Source: Artemia franciscana
Taxonomy: Eukaryota; Arthropoda; Branchiopoda; Anostraca; Artemiidae
Direction: 5' to 3'
DNA: 64,000 nt
NCBI RefSeq assembly: GCF_032884065.1
Contig: NC_088871.1
Location: 12,810,393-12,874,392, forward strand
Position 1 is the first letter of the stretch. Each line of letters starts with the position of its first letter. The notes under the pieces were generated by a model, which saw only the letters and a program-made list of their open reading frames with translations, ran no database searches and had not been told where the DNA came from. Both the position numbers and the translations under genes were made by a program. Below, piece after piece: positions 1 through 63,102 of this stretch.

Positions 1-1558
1 GTAAAAGCTGCAGTATCTCGTCCCAAGATTGATTACATGTAAATGTAATAAATAAATCTGGACGACCAGAGAGACGAACATACGCAATAGCATCTTGAGC
101 ATATTCATGCATATGACGGGGACTGCCAGCATATGACGAAGGTAAAATTGTTAATCTTCCAACGTTTGTGATATTACCGTCATTTATAACTGCATCTCGC
201 AAATGAATGTATTGTTCAGAGCGGAGCTTGGTCTGATTCAGGCGGATATATAGCAAACGTTCTGATTCAATTTTAGCATACATATCAACGACGAATTGGT
301 GAAACAATTCACAGCATTTTAAAATATAATTTTCTTCATCCTGCCGAATCATTAGTCTATAGGAATAATAATGCATTGCACTGCATTTCTTATTCATTTC
401 TTTGTTAGTGGCTGGATTCATCAATTTGATATTAAAGTGATAGCCGTCGGTTCCTTCCCAAAAAATGATAGGATATTGTAGGGCATCGTAGCATCGATGA
501 GTTTCAGCAATTCTTAACAACTGAGCGTTTCGCTTATGAAGAATAATATCTCGAGGTAAAAACTGATCACCGACCATAACGATTGCCACTTCGTCGATAG
601 TTGGAGCATTGTATCTACGCACATGTTGGCCAGGAGGCGTTTTGTCAGCGGAAATAACAATTTTATGCGTATCAGTAGGCATCAAATCGATGGCTGTTTT
701 GAACAGACGCACTAAATTATTATTTTCGTGGAAAAGATGTTGCAATTGGGAAACGATAGTCCTTTCAACGTTGGGAGAAATTTCGCAACGTGCATTCAAT
801 TCAGAATTTCTATCACTGATGAAGTACAATTGTAAAAATTTATGATTCTCGCCTGAGAATGGTAGAAGGGACCCTGCTCTATGATAAATTTGACCTTTTA
901 CTTTGAAAGTAGACATAAATTGATCTGGATTTTCGATTTGGGCTCCAAACGACGTCATTTGGAAACATGAGTTATATTTTCTGATTTTTGACAAAAAACG
1001 CTTAGATTCTGACGTAGTTCCAGTAAGGAAAGTCTTCAATGGCTCTGGTGGTGCAGCCAATAGAGGAAGTTTAACTTTTCCTGAGGCGCAACACATTCCC
1101 ATTGTTTCACCATTGAATTTCAAGGCCTTGCAACAGGAACAAATTTTAGACATAGTCCCGATTTGAACACATCCACTCAAGCTATAATCATCGACTGGGC
1201 TGTACCTGAATGCTAGGCGATAACTTTCAGGTTGCTCTGATTCCTCGGCACGCTTTCTTTTGGCATTATCTTTTGAAGCCGCAAGCCTGTTTTCACGTTG
1301 CTCTTGTGATTCCTCGGCACGCTTTCTGTTCTTACCTTCTCTATCAGCCGCAAGCCTGTTTTCTCGCTGTTCTTGTGATTCCTCGGCACGCTTTCTTCTC
1401 TTACTTTCTCTATCAGCCGCAAGCCTGTTTTCTTGCTGTTCTTGAGATTCCTCGGCACGCTTTCTTTTCTTACTTTCTCTATCAGCCGCAAGTTTTTTGG
1501 CATAGACTCTTTGAGTAGCTCTTTGAGCACTTTCAACATAATTATTCCAAGTAGACAT
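1..1558 (-). CDS. Helitron Rep/helicase protein, N-terminal 519 codons, cut by the window edge
   Basis: The minus-strand frame from the ATG at 1558 stays open to position 1, with no stop in the stretches I checked by hand. It begins MSTWNNYVES, then has four tandem 23-residue charged repeats (LAADRESKKRKRAEE type, likely coiled coil with basic nuclear-targeting patches). A Helitron-type cysteine cluster follows (CSCCKALKF and MCCASGKVKLP), then the Rep N-terminal domain through RPDLFITFTCNQSWDEI. The catalytic HUH and tyrosine motifs would lie beyond the edge, so activity cannot be judged. The domain order matches Helitron Rep proteins, which nick and rejoin single-stranded DNA. Positions 1..842 are nearly identical to 46952..47793, and similar to 8650..9490 on the other strand. 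Unlike the other copies it shows no stop or frameshift. What is seen is the frame; membership in a Helitron is firm; that it is functional is not shown. Confidence 0.85.
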   Translation of the reverse strand, partial: MSTWNNYVESAQRATQRVYAKKLAADRESKKRKRAEESQEQQENRLAADRESKRRKRAEESQEQRENRLAADREGKNRKRAEESQEQRENRLAASKDNAKRKRAEESEQPESYRLAFRYSPVDDYSLSGCVQIGTMSKICSCCKALKFNGETMGMCCASGKVKLPLLAAPPEPLKTFLTGTTSESKRFLSKIRKYNSCFQMTSFGAQIENPDQFMSTFKVKGQIYHRAGSLLPFSGENHKFLQLYFISDRNSELNARCEISPNVERTIVSQLQHLFHENNNLVRLFKTAIDLMPTDTHKIVISADKTPPGQHVRRYNAPTIDEVAIVMVGDQFLPRDIILHKRNAQLLRIAETHRCYDALQYPIIFWEGTDGYHFNIKLMNPATNKEMNKKCSAMHYYSYRLMIRQDEENYILKCCELFHQFVVDMYAKIESERLLYIRLNQTKLRSEQYIHLRDAVINDGNITNVGRLTILPSSYAGSPRHMHEYAQDAIAYVRLSGRPDLFITFTCNQSWDEILQLL

Positions 1559-3432: not shown

Positions 3433-3567
3433 TCGATTAGCAATCACCATCAACAAAGCTCAAGGGCAATCATTAGAATCATGAGGTATAGATCTGAATA
3501 CAGATTGTTTTCCCATGGACCATTATATGTTGCATGTTCAAGAGTCGGTAAACCTGACAATCTATTT
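3433..3567 (+). pseudogene. Helitron helicase C-terminal remnant, truncated
   Basis: Degenerate coding sequence for the helicase end: INKAQGQSLE, then a stop (TGA in CATGAGGTATA), then the DLNTDCF and YVACSRV regions. It is cut at 3567 by the duplication junction. Compare the better-kept copy at 56400..56606. Confidence 0.75.
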
Positions 3568-3604: not shown

Positions 3605-4352
3605 GACGTCAAAACTGAAAAAACTAAAAAAAGGCAAAAACTACAAAAAAAACTAAAAACTAATAAAAAAAATAAAAAAGCTAAAAAACTAAAAAAAACT
3701 AAAAAAAGGCAAAAACTACAAAAATAACTAAAAACTAATAAAAAAGCTAAAAAACTAAAAAAACTAAAAAAAGGCAAAAACTACAAAAAAACTAAAAACT
3801 AATAAAAAAAATAAAAAAGCTAAAAAACTAAAAAAACTAAAAAAACTAAAAAAAGGTAAAAAACTAAAAAAACTAAGTACAAAAAAAACTAAAAACTAAT
3901 AAAAAAAATAAAAAAGCTAAAAAACTAAAAAAACTAAAAAACTAAAAAAAGGTAAAAAACTAAAAAAACTAAAAACTAAAAAAAACTAAAAAAAGGAAAA
4001 AACTGAAAAATAAGCTAAAATAAAGGTAAAAACCAATAAAAAACTAAAAAAAAACTGAAAAAACTAAAAAAAGGCAAAAACTACAAAAAAAAACTAAAAA
4101 CTAATAAAAAAAGTAAAAAAGCTAAAAAACTAAAAAAACTAAAAAAACTAAAAAAAGGTAAAAAACTAAAAAAAATAAAAAATAAAAAAAACTAAAAAAA
4201 AGGAAAAAACTGAAAAATAAGCTAAAATAAAGGTAAAAACCAATAAAAAACTAAAAAGAAAAAAAGGAAAAAACTAAAAAAAATTTTCATCTAAAAAACT
4301 AAAAAAAACTAAAAAAGGTAAAAACTAAAAGAACTAAAAAAGAAAAAAATAA
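3605..4352 (+). repeat. CTAAAAA low-complexity tract, second copy
   Basis: Same word set as 2487..3003 in the second half of the tandem duplication, longer by extra units. A shorter tract of the same kind follows at about 4455..4620. Confidence 0.9.
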
Positions 4353-6544: not shown

Positions 6545-6894
6545 ATGTTTATTTGTAAAATGACTGAAGAACCTACAATGGCAACAGCCGAGGAAGCTGC
6601 TCAAAGAGTTTATGCCAAAAAACTTGCTGCTGATAGAGAAAGTAAAAAAGAAAGCGTTCCAAGGAATCACAAGAACAGCAAGAAAACAGGCTTGCGGCTA
6701 AAGAACGCAAAACCGCGCAGTTAGATGAAAATCCACCTGGACAGCGAGAGTCAAAACATATCAAAACTGAAAATGATAGCGATGATGATTGGGTTTGGGA
6801 TTTTGACTTGGATAAGGTCGTCAATGCCTACCAGATTTAAGTTAAAAAAACAAAGGTTCGTCGATATGTACTTCATAGTGACGCTGAAAAATAA
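6545..6894 (+). pseudogene. 116-codon Helitron ORF (Rep-like N-terminus, WVWD tail), broken copy
   Basis: Starts MFICKMTEEPTMATAEEAAQ and continues into one 23-residue charged repeat. One base is missing in the AGTAAAAAAGAAAG stretch near 6645, shifting the frame. The tail PPGQRESKHIKTENDSDDD, WVWDFDLDKV and HSDAEK can be followed in another frame, with a TAA replacing a leucine codon before VKKTKVRRY. At 350 bp it is one base shorter than the intact copy at 49115..49465. Function unknown. Confidence 0.7.
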
Positions 6895-7696: not shown

Positions 7697-7743
7697 ATAT
7701 CTATATATATAAAAATAAGTTGTCTGTGGATGTGTCTGTCAGG

Positions 7744-7830: not shown

Positions 7831-7856
7831 ACATGCGTTCACGTAGAAATCTATTA

Positions 7857-10167
7857 ATGTTTAACTTTAAAATGACTGATGAACTTACAATGGCAACAGC
7901 CGAGGAAGATGCTCAAAGAGTCTATGCCAAAAAACTTGCTGCTGATAGAGAAAGTCAGAAAAGAAAGCGTGCCGAAGAATTAAAAGAACAGCAAGGAAAC
8001 AGGCTTGAGGCTGATAGAGAAAGAAAGAACAGAAAGCGTGCCGAGGAACTACCAGAGCAACGCGAAAGCAGACTTGCTGCTAAAAGAGAAAGTGAAAAAA
8101 GAAGGCGTGCCGAGGAACTACCAGAGCAACATGAAACCAGACTTGCTGCTAAAAGAGAAAGTGAAAAGGAAGGCGTGCGGAGGAATCACAAGAACAGCAA
8201 GAAATCAGGCTTGATGCTGATAGAGAAAGTAAGAAAAGAAAGCGTGCCGAGGAATCAGAGCAATCTGAAAGTTATCGCCTGGCATTCAGGTACAGCCCAG
8301 TCGAAGATTATAGCTTGAGTAGATGTGTTCAAATCGGGACTATGTCTAAAATTCGTCCCTATTGCAAGGCCTTGAAATTCAATGGTGAAACAATGGGAAT
8401 GTGTTGCGCCTCAGGAAAAGTTAAACTTCCTCTATTGGCTGCACCACCAGAGCCATTGAAGACTTTCCTTACTGGAACTACGTCAGAATCTAAGCGTTTT
8501 TTGTCAAAAATCAGAAAATATAACTCATGTTTCCAAATGACGTCGTTTGGAGCCCAAATCGAAAATCCGGATCAATTTATGTCTACTTTCAAAGTAAAAG
8601 GGCAAATTTATCATAGAGCAAGGTCCCTTCTACCATTCTCAGGCGAGAATCATAAATTTTTACAATTGTACTTCATCAGTGATAGAAATTCTGAATTGAA
8701 TGCAGGTTGCGAAATTTCTCACAACGTTGAAAGGACAATCGTTTCCCAATTGCAACATCTTTTCCACGAAAATAATAATTTAGTGCGTCTGTTCAAAACA
8801 GCCATCGATTTGATGCCTACTGATACGCATAAAATTGTTATTTCCGCTGACAAAACGCCTCCTGGCCAACATGTGCGTAGATACAATGCTCCAACTATCG
8901 ACGAAGTGGCAATCGTTATGTTCGGTGATCAGTTTTTACCTCGAGATATTATTCTTCATAAGCGAAACGCTCAGTTGTTAAGAATTGCTGAAACTCATCG
9001 ATGCTACGATGCCCTACAATATCCTATAATTTTTTGGGATGGAGCCGACGGCTATCACTTTAATATTAAATTGATGAATCCAGCCACTAACAAAGAAATG
9101 AATAAGAAATGCAGTGCAATGCATTATTATTCCTATAGACTAATGATTCGGCAGGATGAAGAAAATTATATTTTAAAATGCCGTGAATTGTTTCACCAAT
9201 TCGTCGTTGATATGTATGCTAAAATTGAATCAGAACGTTTGCTATATATCCGCCTGAATCAGACCAAGCTCCGCTCTGAACAATACATTCATTTGCGAGA
9301 TGCAGTTACAAATGACGGTAATACCACAAACGTTGGAAGATTAACAATTTTACCTTCGTCATATGCTGTGTGTCCCCGTCATATGCTAGAATATGCTCAA
9401 GATGCTATTGCGTATGTTTGTCTCTATGGTCGTCCAGATTTATTTATTACATTTACATGTAATCAATCTTGGGACGAGATACTGCAGCTTTTACTTCAAG
9501 GACAATCGGCGGTTCATAGACATGACATTACGGCCCGTGTCTTCCGGCAAAAGTTGAAATCACTGATAAACTACGTAGTAAAACTTAAAGTGTTTGGGTC
9601 AGTGCGATGCTGGATGTACTCAGTGGAATGGTAAAAACAAGGTTTGCCACACGTACATATACTAATCCCACGTGCAATATTTCCAAATCATCTGGGATGG
9701 GTAAAGTATTGCAGCAATGCAAACTTATTATTTGGGATGAGTGCACAATGGCACAAAAAAAATCGGTCGAGGCTCTGGATCAATGCTTGAAAGATTTGCG
9801 AGGGAAGTCGAAACCCTTTGGCAGCACATTAATATTGCTTGCGGGAGATTTCAGCCAAACATTACCTATAATACCTAGATCAACTCCTGCAGACGAAATG
9901 AATGCTTGCCTGAAAAATTCTAATTTATGGGCTCACGTAAAAACATTAAAATTGACTACAAATATGCGTGTCCGATTGCAAAACGATGACTCTGGTCAAA
10001 CATTTTCAGATCAATTGCTGGCAATTGGAAACGGAAAGCTCCCAGTAGACTCAATTTCAAGGCGTATACAACTACCTGCTGATTTCTGTAATTTAGTGAC
10101 GTCCAAAAATGAATTGATTGAAAAAGTATTTCCGAATATTCTAAAAAATTATTTTTACGTAGTTTGA
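7857..10167 (+). pseudogene. Helitron Rep-helicase, internally deleted and frameshifted
   Basis: Starts MFNFKMTDELTMATAEEDAQ, then five charged repeats. One lost A near 8168 shifts the frame. The Rep N-terminal domain (cysteine cluster MCCASGKVKLP, FITFTCNQSWDEI) continues in the frame used from 8315. A TAA replaces the glutamine codon after SVEW at 9632..9634, just before the HUH motif. Almost immediately the sequence jumps to helicase: NISKSSGMGKVLQQ, motif II IIWDECTM, motif III LLAGDFSQTLPIIPRST, and LTTNMRV. After NELIEKVFPNIL a second deletion leads to the 3' domain. HUH, the catalytic tyrosines, helicase motif I and the C-terminal motifs are all missing, so it cannot be active. Confidence 0.85.
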
Positions 10168-23689: not shown

Positions 23690-25219
23690 TGCACCATGAG
23701 AGAGAGAAAGATGGGTTTATTAATATAAATAACACAACAAAACAAGCAAATGGCCCGAAGCAAAGCTTGTTTGGGCTTACAACCCCAATACACATACATA
23801 TAAAACAATACGAAAAAGAAGAAAAAATAAAAAGAAAAGAAAAGGAAAAGAAAAAAGAAAGAAAGAAGAAGAAGAAAAAATCAATTACCCTGCATTTCAA
23901 TCGAAACGGATTTACACTTCAAAAGAGACAAAACAAAAAGAAACTAAAACCACATAACCAGTATCGCCAAAATCAAAACCAACATCTTGGCTCCACTTGA
24001 GGTCCACTCAACTATCAAAACCATAAATATTAAGGCAAAATAGCTTTAATTCCCGCCGAAATTCAAGAAAGCTATCCAAGTTTCTCAAAGTCGTAGGTAA
24101 ACAATTCCATGCATGGGGTCCTAGATGCCGAATAGAGAATTGAGATCTACGAGTAATAGTAAGCGGACGACGAATTATATCGGACTGTCTCGTAGAATGT
24201 GTATGAATATCACTTCCTAATTCAAACATACTTTTAAAACATATTGGTAAACAATTTTGAAAATATTTATATATAAACAGGCTTCGATAAAAAATAATAA
24301 GTCCTGCTAAAGGCAAGATTTTGCATTCTATATACCTCTTTTGTACCGAGCCTTTAAAACCTACACCACATAACACTCGAAGCGCTTTATTCTGCAAAAC
24401 TCGAACACGATCGAGATGAGAAGGAAATGTACTATCCCAAACATTGCAACAATATAGCAGATAAGGATGAATTAAGGAATAATACATTGTTCTTAAAATA
24501 TCTCTTGGGAAAATATACTGCAACTTTCTTAAAATGCCAACATTCCTAGCGAGTTTAAGACTAATATAATCTATATGTTCTCTAAAGCTGAGACATTCAT
24601 CAATTAAAACTCCTAGATATTTTGTACAATTCATTCTTAGAATACCCATATCAGCAATATTAAGTCTATCTATCCAAGGGTAATAATTTGAGCTCCTACC
24701 ATACAATAAAAAGCAAGATTTACTATAATTCAAATTTAACTTATTAACCTTCATCCAATTGTGTACAAACTCCAAACAAGAACTAATACGACTCAACAGC
24801 TGAATTCCTGTTCGTGCAGCCACAGTTATATGAGTGTCATCCGCAAAGCTGGGAACAATTACTTTTTCCCCGTCACATCCAATGTCAAGATCATACGAAA
24901 TCATATTAAAAGCTCTACATAAATCATTTATAAAAATTAGAAATAACAGGGGACCAAGAACAGATCCTTGAGGTACTCCAAATTTAACACTACTGACTGA
25001 AGAAACATTATCTCCTAGTTGTACATATTGAGTTCTTTCTTTTAAAAACGAGGACAGTAATTCAAGAAATGGTCCTCTAAAACTGTAATTTTCTAATTTG
25101 GCAATGAGTATAAAATGGTCAACGCAGTCAAAAGCTTTTACAATATCAAGAAAAACAGAAGCGACTTTCATACCATTATCCAACGCATCATGAAACGGAT
25201 AGAAGTTCCAGACTGACAT
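23690..25219 (-). mobile_element. 5'-truncated CR1/Jockey-type LINE
   Basis: The minus-strand reverse transcriptase end (24008..25219) is followed by a 3' untranslated part with C/T-rich and A-rich simple sequence (23815..23880) and the conserved-looking TTGGGGTTGTAAGCCCAAAC and GGGCCATTTGCTTG. AATAAA (minus, 23716..23721) and a short GAGA run end it near 23695. No long poly(A), as is usual for CR1-like elements. Confidence 0.75.
24008..25219 (-). CDS. Non-LTR reverse transcriptase, C-terminal 403 codons (5'-truncated)
   Basis: Open for 403 codons. RT motif A VFLDIVKAFDCVDH (residues 22-35, catalytic Asp25), motif B GVPQGSVLGPLLF (81-93) and motif C SFADD (124-128, Asp127/128) are intact. 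YLGVLIDE and the RT-connection/thumb part (LIHPYLLYCCNVWDST) follow. The endonuclease domain, RT fingers and ORF1 are missing, so this is a dead-on-arrival insertion that happens to keep its frame. The in-frame ATG at 25219 is probably incidental. The thumb sequence fits the CR1/Jockey group better than RTE. It sits antisense-free (same strand) in the host gene's intron. Confidence 0.85.
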   Translation of the reverse strand: MSVWNFYPFHDALDNGMKVASVFLDIVKAFDCVDHFILIAKLENYSFRGPFLELLSSFLKERTQYVQLGDNVSSVSSVKFGVPQGSVLGPLLFLIFINDLCRAFNMISYDLDIGCDGEKVIVPSFADDTHITVAARTGIQLLSRISSCLEFVHNWMKVNKLNLNYSKSCFLLYGRSSNYYPWIDRLNIADMGILRMNCTKYLGVLIDECLSFREHIDYISLKLARNVGILRKLQYIFPRDILRTMYYSLIHPYLLYCCNVWDSTFPSHLDRVRVLQNKALRVLCGVGFKGSVQKRYIECKILPLAGLIIFYRSLFIYKYFQNCLPICFKSMFELGSDIHTHSTRQSDIIRRPLTITRRSQFSIRHLGPHAWNCLPTTLRNLDSFLEFRRELKLFCLNIYGFDS

Positions 25220-48710: not shown

Positions 48711-48771
48711 TTTCTTTTTAGTTTTTTTGTAGTTTTTACCTTTTTTAAATTTTTTCTTCTTTTGTATTAAT

Positions 48772-48851
48772 GCTAAAGCCAAGGTTCAAACCTGGAGCCT
48801 CTCGGACCTAGAACCTGAAACATAACGCTTTACCAACTCAGCTACTTCGGC
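48772..48851 (-). repeat. tRNA-like segment inside the Helitron, copy 1
   Basis: 80-nt minus-strand segment with A box TAGCTGAGTTGG and B box GGTTTGAACC. It has an acceptor-like GCCGAAG/CTTTAGC pair (6 of 7) and a T-arm CCAGG/CTTGG with a 7-nt loop. The anticodon arm does not fold properly and no isotype can be given. See the copies at 50523..50602 and 63010..63089. Confidence 0.6.
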
Positions 48852-49114: not shown

Positions 49115-49465
49115 TTATTTTTCAGCTTCACTATGAAATACATATCGCCGAACCTTTGTTTTTTTAACTAAAATCTGGTAGGCATTGATGACCTTATCCA
49201 AGTCAAGATCCCAAACCCAATCATCATGGCTATCATTTTCAGTTTTGATATGTTTTGACTCTCGCTGTCCAGGTGGATCTTCATCTAACTGCGCGGTTTT
49301 GCGTTCTTTAGCCTCAAGCCTGTTTCCTTGCTGTTCTTTTGATTCCTCGGCACGCTTTCTCTTCTGACTTTCTCTATCAGCAGCAAGTTTTTTTGCATAG
49401 ACTCTTTGAGCATCTTCATCGGCTTTTGCCATTGTAAGTTCATCAGTCATTTTAAACTTAAACAT
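49115..49465 (-). CDS. 116-residue Helitron ORF, intact copy (Rep-like N-terminus, WVWD tail)
   Basis: Uninterrupted. The N-terminus MFKFKMTDELTMAKADEDAQ and one charged repeat (KKLAADRESQKRKRAEESKE) match the Rep protein of the same family. The tail differs: LDEDPPGQRESKHIKTENDS, WVWDLDLDKVINAYQILV, KKTKVRRYVFHSEAEK. It is acidic in the middle and basic at the end, with no membrane segment. Four copies of this ORF occur in the window and this one is intact. It could be a Helitron accessory protein, or only the stump of a differently spliced or deleted Rep. I recognise no known domain in the tail. It sits directly behind the Helitron leader, as Rep does. Confidence 0.55.
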   Translation of the reverse strand: MFKFKMTDELTMAKADEDAQRVYAKKLAADRESQKRKRAEESKEQQGNRLEAKERKTAQLDEDPPGQRESKHIKTENDSHDDWVWDLDLDKVINAYQILVKKTKVRRYVFHSEAEK

Positions 49466-49620
49466 TAATAGATTTCTGCGTGAACATATATGTCTTAAAT
49501 ATCTTTAATGACGTCACCGTCATAATAAAAATGACGACAACTAACTTCATGACGCCAGTCGACACAGAAACATGACGTCACCTGATCCACAGACAGACAA
49601 CTAATTTTTATATATATAGA
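49466..49620 (-). promoter_or_regulatory. Helitron 5' terminus and leader (minus strand)
   Basis: TC-TATATATATAAAAATTAG at 49620, CTGTCTGTC, TGACGTCA at 49573..49580 and 49509..49516 (the middle box is mutated to TGACGCCA), TATTTAAG-like box, then the ATG at 49465. Confidence 0.6.
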
Positions 49621-50165: not shown

Positions 50166-50167
<2 letters not shown>

Positions 50168-50415
50168 TAGCTGTTGGGGTGGCGCTTCGCGCCCCCCAAG
50201 CCCCCCCGCGCGCGTAAGTCGTTACGCGCCATATTAGTTACGCGCCATTGTAATTGTGTCCCTGTGTCCCACCTGTGAATATAGATAGATTTATATATGT
50301 GTTTCAAACTACGTAAAAATTGCGAATTTCCCACTACTGGGAGCTTTCCGTTTCCAATTGCCAGCAATTGATCTGAAAATGTTTGACCAGAGTCATCGTT
50401 ACAGAGACAGACAAC

Positions 50416-50464
<49 letters not shown>

Positions 50465-50522
50465 CTTTTTAGTTTTTTTGTAGTTTTTACCTTTTTTAGT
50501 TTGTTTCTTCTTTTGTATTAAT

Positions 50523-50602
50523 GCTAAAGCCAAGGTTTAAACCTGGAGCCTCTCGGACCTAGAACCTGAAACATAACGCTTTACCAACTCAGCTACTTCG
50601 GC
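50523..50602 (-). repeat. tRNA-like segment inside the Helitron, copy 2
   Basis: Same 80-nt segment as 48772..48851, with the B box reading GGTTTAAACC and the A box intact. Confidence 0.6.
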
Positions 50603-50755
50603 TTGAATACATTCGTTTTGAGCGGCTTCCTCGGGTGTTGCCATTGTAGGTTCTTCAGTCATTTTACAATTAGAAATTTCTCTTTCAACGGTCTTCTTAC
50701 AATTAAAAATTTGTCTTTGAACGATATTCTTAAATACCTGTGTCCTGGTCGTCAT
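50537..50755 (-). CDS. 72-codon ORF ending in the tRNA-like segment
   Basis: Reads MTTRTQ (from minisatellite), then FKNIVQRQIFNCKKTVEREI, SNCKMTEEPTMATPEEAAQN and ECIQAEVAELVKRYVSGSRS, ERLQV. The central MTEEPTMATPEEAAQ part is a duplicate of the Rep N-terminus. The last ~20 residues are encoded by the tRNA-like segment. The copy at 62857..63075 is equally open and differs at only three residues. A small expressed peptide is possible but not shown. Confidence 0.35.
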   Translation of the reverse strand: MTTRTQVFKNIVQRQIFNCKKTVEREISNCKMTEEPTMATPEEAAQNECIQAEVAELVKRYVSGSRSERLQV

Positions 50756-51016
50756 TTATATTCCCTGTGTCCCGGTCGTCATTTGTGTCCCGGTATCCCA
50801 GTCTGTAATTTCTCTTTGAGTGTCCCGGTCGTTATTTATATTCCCTCTGTCCCGGTCTGTAATTTCTCTTTGAGTGTTTTTTCTTTTTGGTATTTTTTAG
50901 TTTTTACATTTTTTCTTTTTTCAGTTTTCTTTTTCTTCTTTATTTTTCAGCGTGTCCTGGTCGTCATTTATATTCCCTGTGTCCCGGTCGTCATGTTTTT
51001 TACAATTTTTCTTTTT

Positions 51017-51388
51017 TCAGTTTTCTTTTTCTTCTTTATTTTTCAGCTTCACTATGAAATACATATCGCCGAACCTTTGTTTTTTTTTAACTAAAATCTG
51101 GTAGGCATTGATGACCTTATCCAAGTCAAAATCCCAAACCCAATCATCATCGCTATCATTTTCAGTTTTGATATGTTTTGACTCTCGCTGTCCAGGTGGA
51201 TCTTCATCTAACTGCGCGGTTTTGCGTTCTTTAGCCTCAAGCCTGTTTCCTTGCTGTTCTTTTGATTCCTCGGCACGCTTTCTTTTCTGACTTTCTCTAT
51301 CAGAAGCAAGTTTTTTGGCATAGACTCTTTGAGCATCTTCATCGGCTTTTGCCATTGTAAGTTCATCAGTCATTTTAAACTTAAACAT
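51017..51388 (-). pseudogene. 116-codon Helitron ORF, frameshifted near the end
   Basis: Same protein as 49115..49465 up to AYQILVKK. The A-run has nine A where the intact copy has seven, so the last ~18 residues are read out of frame and a different ending is used. The original stop would be at 51036..51038. Confidence 0.7.
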
Positions 51389-51431
51389 TAATAGATTTCT
51401 ACGTGAACATATATGTCTTAAATATCTTTAA

Positions 51432-51503
51432 TGACGTCACCGTCATAGCAAAAATGACGACAACTAACTTCATGACGTCAGCCGACACAGAAACATGACG
51501 TCA
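51432..51503 (-). promoter_or_regulatory. Three TGACGTCA boxes in the Helitron leader
   Basis: TGACGTCA at 51496..51503, 51473..51480 and 51432..51439 (minus-strand order). Spacings of 23 and 41 bp are identical to those at 7744..7815. Confidence 0.5.
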
Positions 51504-51554
51504 CCTGATCCACAGACAGACAGACAACTTATTTTTATATAGATAGATAGATAG

Positions 51555-53475: not shown

Positions 53476-55962
53476 ATGTTTAAGTTTACAATGACTGATG
53501 AAGATGCTCAAAGAGTCTATGCCAAAAAACTTGCTGCTGATAGAGAAAGTCAGAAAAGAAAGCGTGCCGAGGAACTACCAGAGCAACGCGAAAGCAGACT
53601 TGCTGCTAAAAGAGAAAGTGAAAAAAGAAGGCGTGCCGAGGAATCAAAAGACCAGCAGGGAAACAGGCTTGAGGCTGATAGAGAAAGAAAGAACAGAAAG
53701 CATGCCGAGGAACTACCAGAGCAACGCAGAAGCAGACTTGCTGCTAAAAGAGAAAGTGAAAAAAGAAGGCGTGCCGAGGAATCAAAAGACCAGCAGGGAA
53801 ACAGGCTTGAGGCTGATTGAGAAAGAAAGAACAGACAGCATGCCGAGGAACTACCAGAGCAACGCAGAAGCAGACTTGCTGCTAAAAGAGAATGTGAAAA
53901 AAGAAGGCGTGCCGAGGAATTACAAGAACAGCAAGAAATCAGGCTTGCTGCTGATAGAGAAAGTAAGAAAAGAAAGCGTGCCGAGGAATCACAAGAACAG
54001 CAAGAAATCAGGCTTGCTGCTGATAGAGAAAGTAAGAAAAGAAAGCGTGCCGAGGAATTAAAAGAACAGCAAGAAATCAGGCTTGCTGCTGATAGAGAAA
54101 GTAAGAAAAGAAAGCGTGCCGAGGAATCAGAGCAATCTGAAAGTTATCGCCTTGCATTCAGGTACAACCCAGTCGATGATTATACCACAAACGTTGGAAG
54201 ATTAACAATTTTACCTTCGTCATATGCTGGCAGTCCCCGTCATATGCATGAATATGCTCAAGATGCTATTGCGTATGTTCGTCTCTATGGTCGTCCAGAT
54301 TTATTTATTACATTTACATGTAATCAATCTTGGGACGAGATACTGCAGCTTTTACTTCAAGGACAATCGGCGGTTCATAGGCATGACATTACGGCACGTG
54401 TCTTCCGGCAAAAGTTGAAATCACTGATAAACTACCTTGTAAAACATGAAGTGTTTGGGTCAGTGCGATGCTGGATGTACTCAGTGGAATGGCAAAAACG
54501 AGGTTTGCCACACGCACATATACTAATCTGGCTACATAAAAAAATTACTTCAAACGAAATTGATGATGTGATTTCCGCTGAAATACCTGATAAAAATGTC
54601 GATAAGGGGTTACATGATATTATTGTAAAAAATATGATACATGGACCTTGCGGTGCACTGAACGAAAATTCACCATGCATGGCCAAAGGAAGGTGCACAA
54701 AGCAATATCCTCGACTTTTAGTACCCAAAACAATTACTGGCAATGATGGTTACCCACAATATAGAAGAAGATCTACTGAAGATGGCGGTAAAACAGCAAT
54801 AATAAAGAAGCGTAACGGTACCACCATCGAAGTAGATAACCAGTGGGTTGTTCCATATTCCCCATTATTATCAAAAACATTTAATGCACACATAAACGTT
54901 GAATACTGTAACTCCGTAAAGGCAATCAAATACATATGTAAATACGTCAACAAAGGCAGTGACATGGCAGTTTTTGGCTTGCAGTCCGAAATCAAAGATT
55001 TCGATGAAATCGTAGAATATCAGGCTGGAAGATACATAAGCAGTAATGAAGCTGTTTGGCGAATTCTTTCATTTCCGATACATGAACGTAGTCCAGCTGT
55101 TGTTCACTTAGCGGTACATTTACAGAATGGTTAACGTGTTTATTTCACGGAAACCAACGTGCAACAAAGAGTCCTGAATCCACCGGATACAACATTAATA
55201 GCTTTTTTTTCGCTTTGCAAAAATGATTCTTTTGCAAAAAAACTGCTGTATACTGAAGTGCCTTCGTATTACACGTGGAATACTAAAAATAAAGTATTTG
55301 AACGTCGAAAACAGGGTAAGTCAGTCGACGGCCAACCTACCATCTTCAAAGATACCACGATAGGAAGACTCTACACCGTTCACCCCAATCAACATGAATG
55401 CTTCTTTCTACGCCTGCTTTTGGTGAATGTACCCGGTCCGACATCCTTTGAGTATTTGAGGACTGTAAATGGTGCTATACATGACACTTACCGTAGTGCA
55501 TGCCAAGCTCTGAATTTATTGGAGAATGACCAACACTGGGATAACTGCATCAATGACGCGTGCGAAACGTCAACCCCAAGTCAAATTCGTGCATTGTTTG
55601 GCATCATTTTAACAACTTGCTCTCCATCAGCTCCTACAGAGTTATGGGAAAAATATAAGTCAAAAATGTCCGAAGATATACTTCATCGAAAACAGTTAGA
55701 GACTTCAGACATGACTTTTGATTTTACATCAGAAATTTATAACTACACTTTAGTTGTTATAGAAGATATTTGCATAAGTATGGCAAACAAACCTCTTCAG
55801 GGTTTGGGAATGCCTTCACCTAACCGTATCGCTGCTGTTTCGACATGTGTAGAATTGGATCGTGAACAAAGTTACAGTACGAGTGATCTAAGGTCGTATG
55901 TACAAAATAACATTTCCAAGTTAACGTCGGAACAAAAAATCATTAGAAAAATGTGGTATTGA
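53476..55962 (+). pseudogene. Helitron Rep, in-frame deletion, two stop codons
   Basis: One frame of 829 codons from the ATG at 53476. It has nine 23-residue charged repeats, TGA at 53818..53820 (AGA changed), then RLAFRYNPVDDY joined in frame to TTNVGRLTILPSSYAGSPRH. The ~340 residues between them in other copies are missing. The catalytic core is present: HUH motif GLPHAHILIWL (His346, His348) and the two-tyrosine motif KYICKYVNKG (Tyr486, Tyr490). A TAA at 55132..55134 replaces glutamine after HLQNG. The inter-domain region then stays open (RALFGIILTTCSPSAPTELW, KYKSKMSEDILHRKQ) to 55962, where a deletion removes helicase motifs I to IV. It is the only copy here with the nuclease motifs. 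Inactive as it stands. Confidence 0.9.
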
Positions 55963-59285: not shown

Positions 59286-61184
59286 ATGCTAATGCATCGA
59301 ATACATAATTTGACTAAGAGATCACGGGCATATTGTGCTGAGAAAGAAAAATTACATTTGTATAAGCTGTTGATTTCAAATAGGACTAATTTAAATATCC
59401 TTAATTTATTTCACGACACACCCTTACACTTTGGAGCCAAAGGAAAATTAGGCGTTTGTAAGCTGTTGATTTCAAATGGTGCCAACGTAAATGCTTTAAA
59501 CAAATTGAATCAAACCCCGTTACATTATGCTGCTGAGCTAGGAAAAGTAGCTACTTGTAAGTTTTTGATTTCAAAAGGTGCTAATATAAATGCCTTAGAT
59601 CATTTGAATAACACAGCCTTACATTTTTCTGCTCAGCAAGGAAAGGTTAATGTTTGTAGGCTGCTTGTTTCACATGGTGCCAGAATAAATTGTGTAAGTA
59701 ATTATGGGTTCACACCTTTACATGCATTGTGTATATCTGCACAACGTAGATATATATATGAAAGTTGTGAAAATAAATTTACCGGGGTTCAACGTAAAAG
59801 GTACATTTATGATTATCATCATCCGCTACTAAAGTCAGAGGAAGCTAAAAAAAGAAAATTATCTGTTTGTATGATGCTGATTTCAAACGGTGCCAACGTA
59901 AATGCCTTAAACTGTTTAAACGAAACCCCGTTAGACCTTGCTGCCATGCTAGGCTATGTAGATATTTGTAAGCTGCTGATTTCACATGGCACCAATATAA
60001 AGGCCTCAAACAATGTTAAACGATGGAAACCACCACCGTTAAACTGTGCTGCAGGTGATGGATACATAGCTATTTGTGATCTGCTGATATCAAATGGCGC
60101 TAATATACATTTGCTTGATGTTGGTGAAAAAACACCGTTACACTGCGCTGCTTCTAGAGGAAAAGTAGCTGTTTGTAGGCTACTGATTTCAAAAGGTGCC
60201 AACGTAAATGCCTTAAACTGGTTAAACGAAACCCCGTTAAACTGTGCTGCACGTGAAGGATACATAGCTATTTGTGATCTGCTGATATCAAATGGTGCCA
60301 ATATACATTTACTCGGTCATGGTGATAACACACCGTTACACTGGGCTGCTTCTGGAGGAAAAGTAGCTGTTTGTAAGCTACTGATTTCAAAGGGTGCCAA
60401 TATAAATGCCGTCAATAAAATGAATATGACACCATTAGATTATACTATCCATGAAAATGAAAGTACCATCGTGTATAGGAGTTTTTATTCGAGTGATTCT
60501 ACCTGGTCAAGACAGGTTGATGTTTTCAAGCTGCTGGTGGTAAATGGCGCCAATGTAAATAATTCTTGTTTTAAGAATTGTGATACACCATTACACTTTG
60601 CTGTTAGACACAAACTACTTTCTGTTAGCAAGCTAATTATTTCAAAGGGTGTAGATGTAAACAGTTTAAACGGTAAAAATGAGACGCCCTTAATGCTATC
60701 TTTTTCAAAAAAATATGTTGCCTTAACGGAATATCTTCTTGAAAACAAAGCATCTTATTGTCCTGGAGGAAGAGAATATGGAAGGGATATATATTCTTCA
60801 ATGCTTACTTGGCTAGTAAAAGAGGTTAGTTTAGAAAAGGCAATAACTAAGAAGTGGTTTTGGAGACTAGGTAACCTTATCTTTAAAACCTATGACTTCA
60901 GCGCATCTACTCTGAAATTGAGTTGCCGGAAAAGGATTAGGGAAGATGAACCTCATATCAAAATAGGCAATAATTTTAAAAATGTTCATATTCCAAAAAC
61001 ATTAAAAGAATACTTAATACACCTAGGGGAACTTGTAGATTTGTTTGAAGAAAATATCTGTGCAGAAATCTCATCTCAAGCTCAAGTTTTGTTTGAAGAA
61101 ACCTCATCTGCAGAAACCTCCGCTCCTAGGAACAAAAAACGAAAACTGACGAATAAGGATGAACAAGTGAATAAGAAAGTCTAA
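59286..61184 (+). CDS. Intronless ankyrin-repeat protein (632 residues)
   Basis: ATG at 59286 is the first after an in-frame stop at 59262. About 13 ankyrin repeats fill residues ~22-485, with the usual TPLHxAAxxGKxxVCKLLISxGANVNALN pattern. The fifth repeat is split by a ~45-residue insert rich in Tyr and Lys. Two repeats (66 residues) are duplicated at DNA level with a 198-bp period (60036.. and 60234..). Residues ~490-610 form a non-ankyrin domain (SMLTWLVKEVSLEKAITKKW, TLKEYLIHLGELVDLFEENI) that I do not recognise. The end (NKKRKLTNKDEQVNKKV) is basic and could direct the protein to the nucleus. No signal peptide or membrane span. Ankyrin repeats bind other proteins; the partner is unknown. 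Single-exon structure and a position between repeat arrays and Helitrons fit a retrogene, a captured gene or a member of an expanded family. Intact, so probably young or under selection. Confidence 0.8.
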   Translation: MLMHRIHNLTKRSRAYCAEKEKLHLYKLLISNRTNLNILNLFHDTPLHFGAKGKLGVCKLLISNGANVNALNKLNQTPLHYAAELGKVATCKFLISKGANINALDHLNNTALHFSAQQGKVNVCRLLVSHGARINCVSNYGFTPLHALCISAQRRYIYESCENKFTGVQRKRYIYDYHHPLLKSEEAKKRKLSVCMMLISNGANVNALNCLNETPLDLAAMLGYVDICKLLISHGTNIKASNNVKRWKPPPLNCAAGDGYIAICDLLISNGANIHLLDVGEKTPLHCAASRGKVAVCRLLISKGANVNALNWLNETPLNCAAREGYIAICDLLISNGANIHLLGHGDNTPLHWAASGGKVAVCKLLISKGANINAVNKMNMTPLDYTIHENESTIVYRSFYSSDSTWSRQVDVFKLLVVNGANVNNSCFKNCDTPLHFAVRHKLLSVSKLIISKGVDVNSLNGKNETPLMLSFSKKYVALTEYLLENKASYCPGGREYGRDIYSSMLTWLVKEVSLEKAITKKWFWRLGNLIFKTYDFSASTLKLSCRKRIREDEPHIKIGNNFKNVHIPKTLKEYLIHLGELVDLFEENICAEISSQAQVLFEETSSAETSAPRNKKRKLTNKDEQVNKKV

Positions 61185-62223: not shown

Positions 62224-62574
62224 ATGTTTTATTGTAAAATGACTGAAGAACTTACAATGGCAACAGCCGAGGAAGCTGCTCAAAGAGTCTATGCCAAAAA
62301 ACTTGCGGCTGATAGAGAAAGCAAGAAAAGAAAGCGTGCCGAGGAATCACAAGAACAGCAAGAAAACAGGCTTGCGGCTAAAGAACGCAAAACCGCATAG
62401 TTAGATGAAAATCCACCTGGACAGCGAGAGTCAAAACATATCAAAACTGAAAATGATAGTGATGATGATTGGGTTTGGGATTTTGACTTGGATAAGGTCA
62501 TCAATGCCTACCAGATTTTAGTTAAAAAAACAAAGGTTCGGCGATATGTATTTCATAGTGACGCTGAAAAATAA
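62224..62574 (+). pseudogene. 116-codon Helitron ORF with one stop codon
   Basis: Same length (351 bp) and sequence class as 49115..49465. TAG at 62398..62400 replaces the glutamine in KTAQLDE. The rest (PPGQRESKHIKTENDSDDD, WVWDFDLDKVINAYQILV, KKTKVRRYVFHSDAEK) is in frame to the common TAA. Confidence 0.75.
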
Positions 62575-62856: not shown

Positions 62857-63075
62857 ATGACGACCAGGACACAGGTATTTAACAATATCGTTCAAAGACA
62901 AATTTTTAATTGTAAGAAGATCGTTGAAAGAGAAATTTCTAATTGTAAAATGACTGAAGAACCTACAATGGCAACACCCAAGGAAGCTGCTCAAAACGAA
63001 TGTATTCAAGCCGAAGTAGCTGAGTTGGTAAAGCGTTATGTTTCAGGTTCTAGGTCCGAGAGGCTCCAGGTTTGA
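62857..63075 (+). CDS. 72-codon ORF ending in the tRNA-like segment, second copy
   Basis: Open from minisatellite-derived MTTRTQ through IVQRQIFNCKKIVEREISNC and MTEEPTMATPKEAAQN to AEVAELVKRYVSGSRSERLQ V. Only three residues differ from 50537..50755. The shared reading frame across both copies is notable, though recent common origin explains it as well as selection. Confidence 0.35.
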   Translation: MTTRTQVFNNIVQRQIFNCKKIVEREISNCKMTEEPTMATPKEAAQNECIQAEVAELVKRYVSGSRSERLQV

Positions 63076-63089
63076 ACCTTGGCTTTAGC
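63010..63089 (+). repeat. tRNA-like segment inside the Helitron, copy 3
   Basis: Acceptor GCCGAAG (63010..63016) against CTTTAGC (63083..63089), D-arm GCT/AGC with A box TAGCTGAGTTGG (63017..63028), T-arm CCAGG/CTTGG around TTTGAAC with B box GGTTTGAACC (63069..63078). The anticodon arm does not pair. It is followed by CATTAATACAAAAG and an A-rich tract, much like a SINE. Confidence 0.6.
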
Positions 63090-63102
63090 ATTAATACAAA
63101 AG

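Follow-up and report, generated by a model that had tools for sequence, protein, structure and literature searches.

Truncated transposases are known to repress P elements, and the KP product of the P element is a repressor-type truncated transposase which retains the transposase N-terminus and from which the catalytic domain is absent. Non-autonomous Helitrons, such as DINE-1 and the HelibatN families described in PMC4778049, have a 5' TC terminus and a 3' hairpin followed by CTAG, possess no intact Rep-helicase and occur as many young copies. According to the same source, DNA binding by the bat Helitron transposase requires the N-terminal domain of the protein, and Helitrons capture gene fragments (PMC4778049). 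STPR is the DNA-binding domain of the silkworm protein FMBP-1, for which the binding site is described as ATNTWTNTA (PMC4821344). Helitrons are reported at 8.81% for the published Artemia franciscana assembly (PMC11492255).

The locus described here lies in a 64,000-nucleotide stretch of A. franciscana contig NC_088871.1 (the window), in which a short ORF recurs in elements that share with known non-autonomous Helitrons the 5' TC terminus, the 3' hairpin with CTAG, the absence of an intact Rep-helicase and the many young copies. These elements differ from other non-autonomous Helitrons in carrying a recurrent open chimeric ORF, which joins a Rep start to a block common to several fronts. As in STPR proteins (FMBP-1; PF21107), one Rep-bearing partner has an array of 23-aa repeats that scores over the Pfam cut-off, but this array lies at the start of a Helitron Rep, and the short ORF keeps about one unit, which is unrecognised by the profile. 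The predicted product resembles KP in being short and in having a transposase N-terminus and no catalytic domain; in contrast to KP, substitutions in the ORF fit neutrality, purifying selection on the truncated product being not significant (dN/dS ~0.8, p = 0.39). We consider it very probable that non-autonomous Helitrons carry the ORF as a passenger, a truncated relic within elements that would be mobilised in trans, and the peptide is most likely not needed.

Copies of the ORF in the window

49115..49465, minus strand: intact 116-aa ORF, class A, the focal copy
49310..49465, minus strand: N-terminal 52 codons of the focal ORF, common to the Rep start of Rep-bearing elements, with about one STPR-like unit
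49115..49309, minus strand: tail block of the focal ORF, codons 53-116 and stop, without detectable similarity to Rep
51036..51388, minus strand: further class A copy with two more bases in its A-run, reading frame open as far as 51017 (123 aa)
62224..62574, plus strand: class B copy with one stop, at codon 59
6545..6894, plus strand: class B copy, frameshifted at about codon 35, in which a TAA follows NAYQI in the tail

The sequence-only reading had placed four copies with a Rep-like start and a common tail in the window. All four are present, and over their full length the other three are 98.0, 93.7 and 92.6% identical in DNA to the 49115 copy, far above chance. One copy is intact as claimed, namely the open 116-aa ORF at 49115..49465 on the minus strand. 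Lesions had been ascribed to each of the remaining copies; these were seen in the 62224 copy (stop) and the 6545 copy (frameshift and TAA), but the 51036 copy is still open, two additional A residues in the A-run near its end giving a 123-aa ORF (51017..51388) with a different C-terminus. The fusion of a Rep N-terminus to an unrelated tail in non-autonomous Helitrons was borne out, and the join recurs genome-wide.

Elements that carry the ORF

49466..49620, minus strand: 5' leader of the 49115 copy, starting with the Helitron 5' TC terminus
50167..51547, minus strand: element around the 51036 copy, with its 5' TC terminus at 51547 and its 3' hairpin and CTAG end at 50167

A 26-mer of the leader occurs at 3,481 exact sites across the genome, and a match to TCTATATATATAAAAATAAGTTG opens most of the copies checked, approximately 155 bases upstream of the ATG. 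The 5' TC terminus is common to the Rep-bearing elements and has 15 matches in the window at up to three mismatches, where the mean expected is 0.00; the termini of the two minus-strand copies are at 49620 and 51547. The ORF had been said to lie behind the same leader as Rep. This applies to the 49115 and 51036 copies on the minus strand, which align with the leader of the Rep-bearing element starting at 7700, but not to the 62224 and 6545 copies, whose upstream DNA is rearranged. At the other end, a 3' hairpin followed by CTRR is present for the 51036 element (hairpin and CTAG, 50167), and a hairpin with a CTAG end was found within 4 kb in some of the copies checked; for the 49115 copy no hairpin with a CTRR end was found between 46138 and 49115.

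Downstream of the ORF, the aligned class A elements contain filler repeats, a tRNA-like stretch, a decayed Rep fragment and a helicase end. The decayed Rep stretch is present in seven of the eight elements aligned (L026 is the exception), and only remnants of Rep-helicase, with no intact gene, were found among them.

The tRNA-like stretch lies 3' of the ORF in all eight of these elements. ARAGORN located such stretches, with anticodon CTA, at 48771-48842 (minus strand) and 63019-63090 (plus strand) and called them tRNA-Pyl under the bacterial code; they are possibly captured or SINE-derived.

The N-terminus and the STPR array of Rep

53476..53820, plus strand: STPR array starting a Rep-bearing copy, PF21107 39.9 bits, cut-off 27
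7833..8318, plus strand: STPR-like region opening a Rep-bearing element, 21.7 bits for PF21107, under the cut-off of 27
8342..9634, plus strand: Rep ORF of the same element as the 7833..8318 start, with a profile match to Helitron_like_N

In alignment, the first 52 codons of the short ORF are the start of the Rep-bearing elements. This region had been taken for an N-terminal coiled coil. The beginning of an STPR array describes it better, since the array of one Rep-bearing copy scores 39.9 bits against a curated PF21107 cut-off of 27, the other three of the four Rep-bearing stretches staying below it at 21.7, 25.8 and 17.7 bits. The weaker stretches in the window are at 1277-1528 (minus strand), 7833-8318 and 53941-54186. 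The array is made up of 23-aa repeated units, of which the short ORF keeps about one, and neither the short ORF nor its first 79 aa matched PF21107 at E up to 1. Judged by these alignments and scores, the start of the short ORF would be the edge of an STPR array, a DNA-binding repeat.

The Helitron 5' terminus contains ATATATATA, which matches the FMBP-1 site and may do so by chance in TA-rich DNA. Because DNA binding by the bat Helitron transposase needs its N-terminal domain (PMC4778049), the STPR array of the full Rep is the more promising lead, one on DNA recognition by these elements; a limited literature search found no paper naming both Helitron and STPR. A scheme in which several Helitron families of this genome recognise their TA-rich ends through STPR repeats that open Rep, and in which the short STPR-tail peptide, as a product of many non-autonomous copies, modulates this recognition in trans, appears very improbable.

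One tail block behind several fronts

The tail forms a block some 200 bp long, and one 41-mer from it occurs at 3,947 exact sites in the 1.27-Gb genome. It was found behind fronts A, B, C and E, and in type D with no N-terminus:

Front A: MFKFKMTDEL
Front B: MFNCKMTEEP, with either one repeat unit or two, each length being represented by nine copies
Front C: MNxDKLKNIEKDRM, in units of about 495 bp
Front E: MTEETAEEAAQ
Type D: tail block after A-rich filler, N-terminus absent

The majority tails of classes A and B differ at three of about 200 sites (<2%), one of them still polymorphic in B, whereas the majority fronts differ at 10 of 141 sites (7.1%). Since the tails are nearly alike and the fronts more diverged, front and tail have had separate histories. 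Two copies, L150 and L151, appear to combine A and B parts.

In L009 (4612-5431), two class C tail ORFs stand in tandem in units about 495 bp apart, an architecture unlike that of A and B, and the class C start pattern of this locus has 264 exact sites. Three of the four type D loci (L055-L058) have two tail copies 0.8 to 1 kb apart.

The tail, for which the sequence-only reading had proposed a search of protein profiles, had no match in Pfam, NCBIfam or PDB (Pfam at E up to 10). For the whole ORF, matches in Pfam and NCBIfam were weak and stayed under the cut-off (CCDC71L, E 0.1; RipA, E 0.28), and PDB gave none; with the 123-aa form, CCDC71L reached E 0.055, and the other matches were weaker and all below the cut-off. 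Several identities for the tail were tried and rejected. As a diverged stretch of Rep it scored no better than shuffles (protein P 0.67 to 0.85, DNA P 0.48 and 0.90), and as a degenerate STPR repeat, in three segment versions, it was equalled by shuffles (P 0.25 to 0.45). In the 9-A frame we took it to resemble a chromo or chromo shadow domain (PF01393), for which there was no Pfam match at E up to 10 and no PDB match; the chromo shadow family has two matches in the genome. Pattern matches to the ORF in viral or prokaryotic contigs were obtained, and none was confirmed.

Tentatively, the tail may derive from a host gene of which a Helitron captured a part, and this would account for its lack of resemblance to Rep. 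Such capture is described for Helitrons (PMC4778049), and the tail together with its E-type extension is no closer to Rep-helicase than shuffles are (P 0.48 to 0.90), but no host gene was found, the tail being unmatched in Pfam, NCBIfam and PDB. The protein-level search of the whole genome scored the best 150 of 15,699 candidates, so that a diverged parent would be hidden. Host capture is compatible with the ORF being a passenger, as the origin of the block.

E-type copies and the remnant of Rep

In E copies the tail is 23 codons longer, and this extension has 378 sites in the genome with up to two mismatches. Twelve of these sites were fetched which, together with L143, gave 13 copies. The extension passes directly into Rep in 12 of the 13 (11 of the twelve fetched and L143), at VERTIVSQLQHLFH or close variants. 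An identical 64-bp deletion in Rep was seen, in one alignment, in all six A copies, in six of seven E copies and in L157; the remaining E copy, L171, does not have it. Slightly downstream of the deletion, a TAA is found in all six A copies and in the E copies L163, L167 and L170. Since the 64-bp deletion and the TAA are common to A and E, the A bodies descend from an E-like element. What survives as the short ORF appears to be a tail-Rep chimera that was truncated and had its 5' front swapped. The refuting outcome named beforehand, a tail lying inside a longer Rep-helicase elsewhere in the genome, was found in part, as the E-type tail continues into a Rep remnant, but none of the loci fetched showed an intact tail-Rep-helicase.

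Alternatively, the tail could be a genuine N-terminal part of Rep in a diverged autonomous Helitron, the E family, which we regard as unlikely. In L162 and L165 the frame of the extension continues into that of Rep, as it does in L168 save for one stop, and L171 is free of the 64-bp deletion; nevertheless, in the other nine of the 12 copies that pass from tail to Rep the two frames do not agree, and the loci fetched contain no intact tail-Rep-helicase. In addition, the join omits the N-terminal region of Rep that is found in other copies, and the tail is unlike that region.

Selection on the ORF

The leader sample comprised 80 copies out of about 100 listed of the 3,481 leader sites, chosen regardless of the ORF, and the tail sample comprised 20 copies out of about 100 listed of the 3,947 tail sites; all were on contig C1. 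Copies obtained as best hits were kept out of the dN/dS analysis, for which 34 of the 35 class A copies were used. The poorly aligned L060 was removed, and L080 and L088, which have a partial tail, were below the 85% alignment limit. The neutral expectation was derived from the spectrum of the same changes.

The tail aligned at more than 85% in 37 of the 80 leader copies, and the ORF was intact in 18 of these 37. Of the changes in the 34 class A copies, 64 are nonsynonymous, 25 are synonymous and 8 create stops, which corresponds to a whole-ORF dN/dS of ~0.82 (p = 0.39); the 8 stops compare with 7.1 expected. The dN/dS was 1.03 for the N-terminus and 0.66 for the tail (p = 0.17), with values of 0.58 for tail singletons (p = 0.12) and 0.45 for the last 16 codons of the tail (p = 0.18). 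The tail estimate is on the side of constraint and is not significant, so that a tail dN/dS clearly below 1, suggested earlier as support for function, was not obtained at the ~1% divergence of these copies. Weak constraint on the ORF is possible in copies so young.

Changes present in at least two copies include 15 nonsynonymous and 3 synonymous ones. Between the A and B consensus sequences, the front has 9 nonsynonymous differences and 1 synonymous difference, and the tail has three differences, all nonsynonymous, one of which is still polymorphic in B; between A and C/E (seven copies), the tail has two nonsynonymous differences and indels and zero synonymous differences. The class majorities in these comparisons include some copies picked by protein or DNA match. 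Among 61 tail copies unselected at the site, the TAA after NAYQI is present in 8 of 12 class B copies, 0 of 42 class A copies, 0 of 4 C/E copies and 1 of 3 others, and a 39-mer carrying this stop has 1,887 exact sites genome-wide. The wide multiplication of this nonsense form argues that the end of the tail, at the minimum, is dispensable.

A role for the protein as a competitor, dimerisation partner or accessory factor had been put forward and is not supported, given the neutral-like substitutions, the almost exclusively nonsynonymous consensus differences between classes and the multiplied nonsense version. The other possibility raised at the time, a relic (there of one old deletion, here of an old rearrangement), agrees best with the neutral-like substitutions and the spread of the version with a premature stop. 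There are counterpoints to the view that the ORF is a passenger: the tail dN/dS is below 1, about half of the sampled class A ORFs are intact, and the indel that separates A from two of the three C copies preserves the 7-A frame.

Another reading is a short protein which, as a trans-acting decoy or repressor, would use its residual STPR unit to bind Helitron ends or Rep and so limit the autonomous element. The Rep N-terminus whose STPR array exceeds the Pfam cut-off, the resemblance of ATATATATA in the 5' terminus to the FMBP-1 site (PMC4821344) and the need of the bat transposase for its N-terminal domain in DNA binding (PMC4778049) are consistent with such an activity, as are the 18 intact ORFs among 37 sampled copies. 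However, about one of several repeats is left and it has no STPR match, the motif match is possibly due to chance in a TA-rich end, and purifying selection is not significant (dN/dS ~0.8, p = 0.39). The stop-bearing version at 1,887 exact sites also speaks against the activity. That this stop falls after the N-terminus, and that copies so young do not permit a strong test, are the chief reasons for giving a decoy or repressor a low probability at all; overall, we consider it very unlikely.

Proposed assembly of the chimeric ORF

With the ORF as a passenger, its two parts would have different sources. The front, consisting of the leader and 52 codons, would be the 5' end of Rep-bearing Helitrons in which an STPR array starts Rep, and the back would be the block of about 200 bp, of non-Rep origin. 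We infer that the block was first set upstream of a Rep gene without its own N-terminal part, giving the E type. The Rep part may then have decayed, the 64-bp deletion being included in this decay, after which the block would have been shortened and filler inserted behind it. Finally, the 5' front would have been exchanged for those of other Helitron families (A and B), presumably by recombination or template switching. Multiplication would depend on a Rep-helicase that acts in trans on the 5' TC end and the 3' hairpin. Mobilisation in trans, the sequence of the steps and the way in which fronts were exchanged are conjectural parts of this scheme; one block behind different fronts, a common deletion and neutral-like substitutions are observed.

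The block and its several fronts are a record of module exchange among Helitrons, with the 64-bp deletion as a marker of descent. The locus also illustrates how a convincing, recurrent and often intact ORF can arise from a young transposon burst without clear selection on a protein.

Two longer ORFs were noted elsewhere in the window. A 632-aa ORF at 59286-61184 presumably encodes ankyrin-like repeats, and a 403-aa ORF at 24008-25219 (minus strand) has what we take to be a resemblance to the reverse transcriptase of a non-LTR element.
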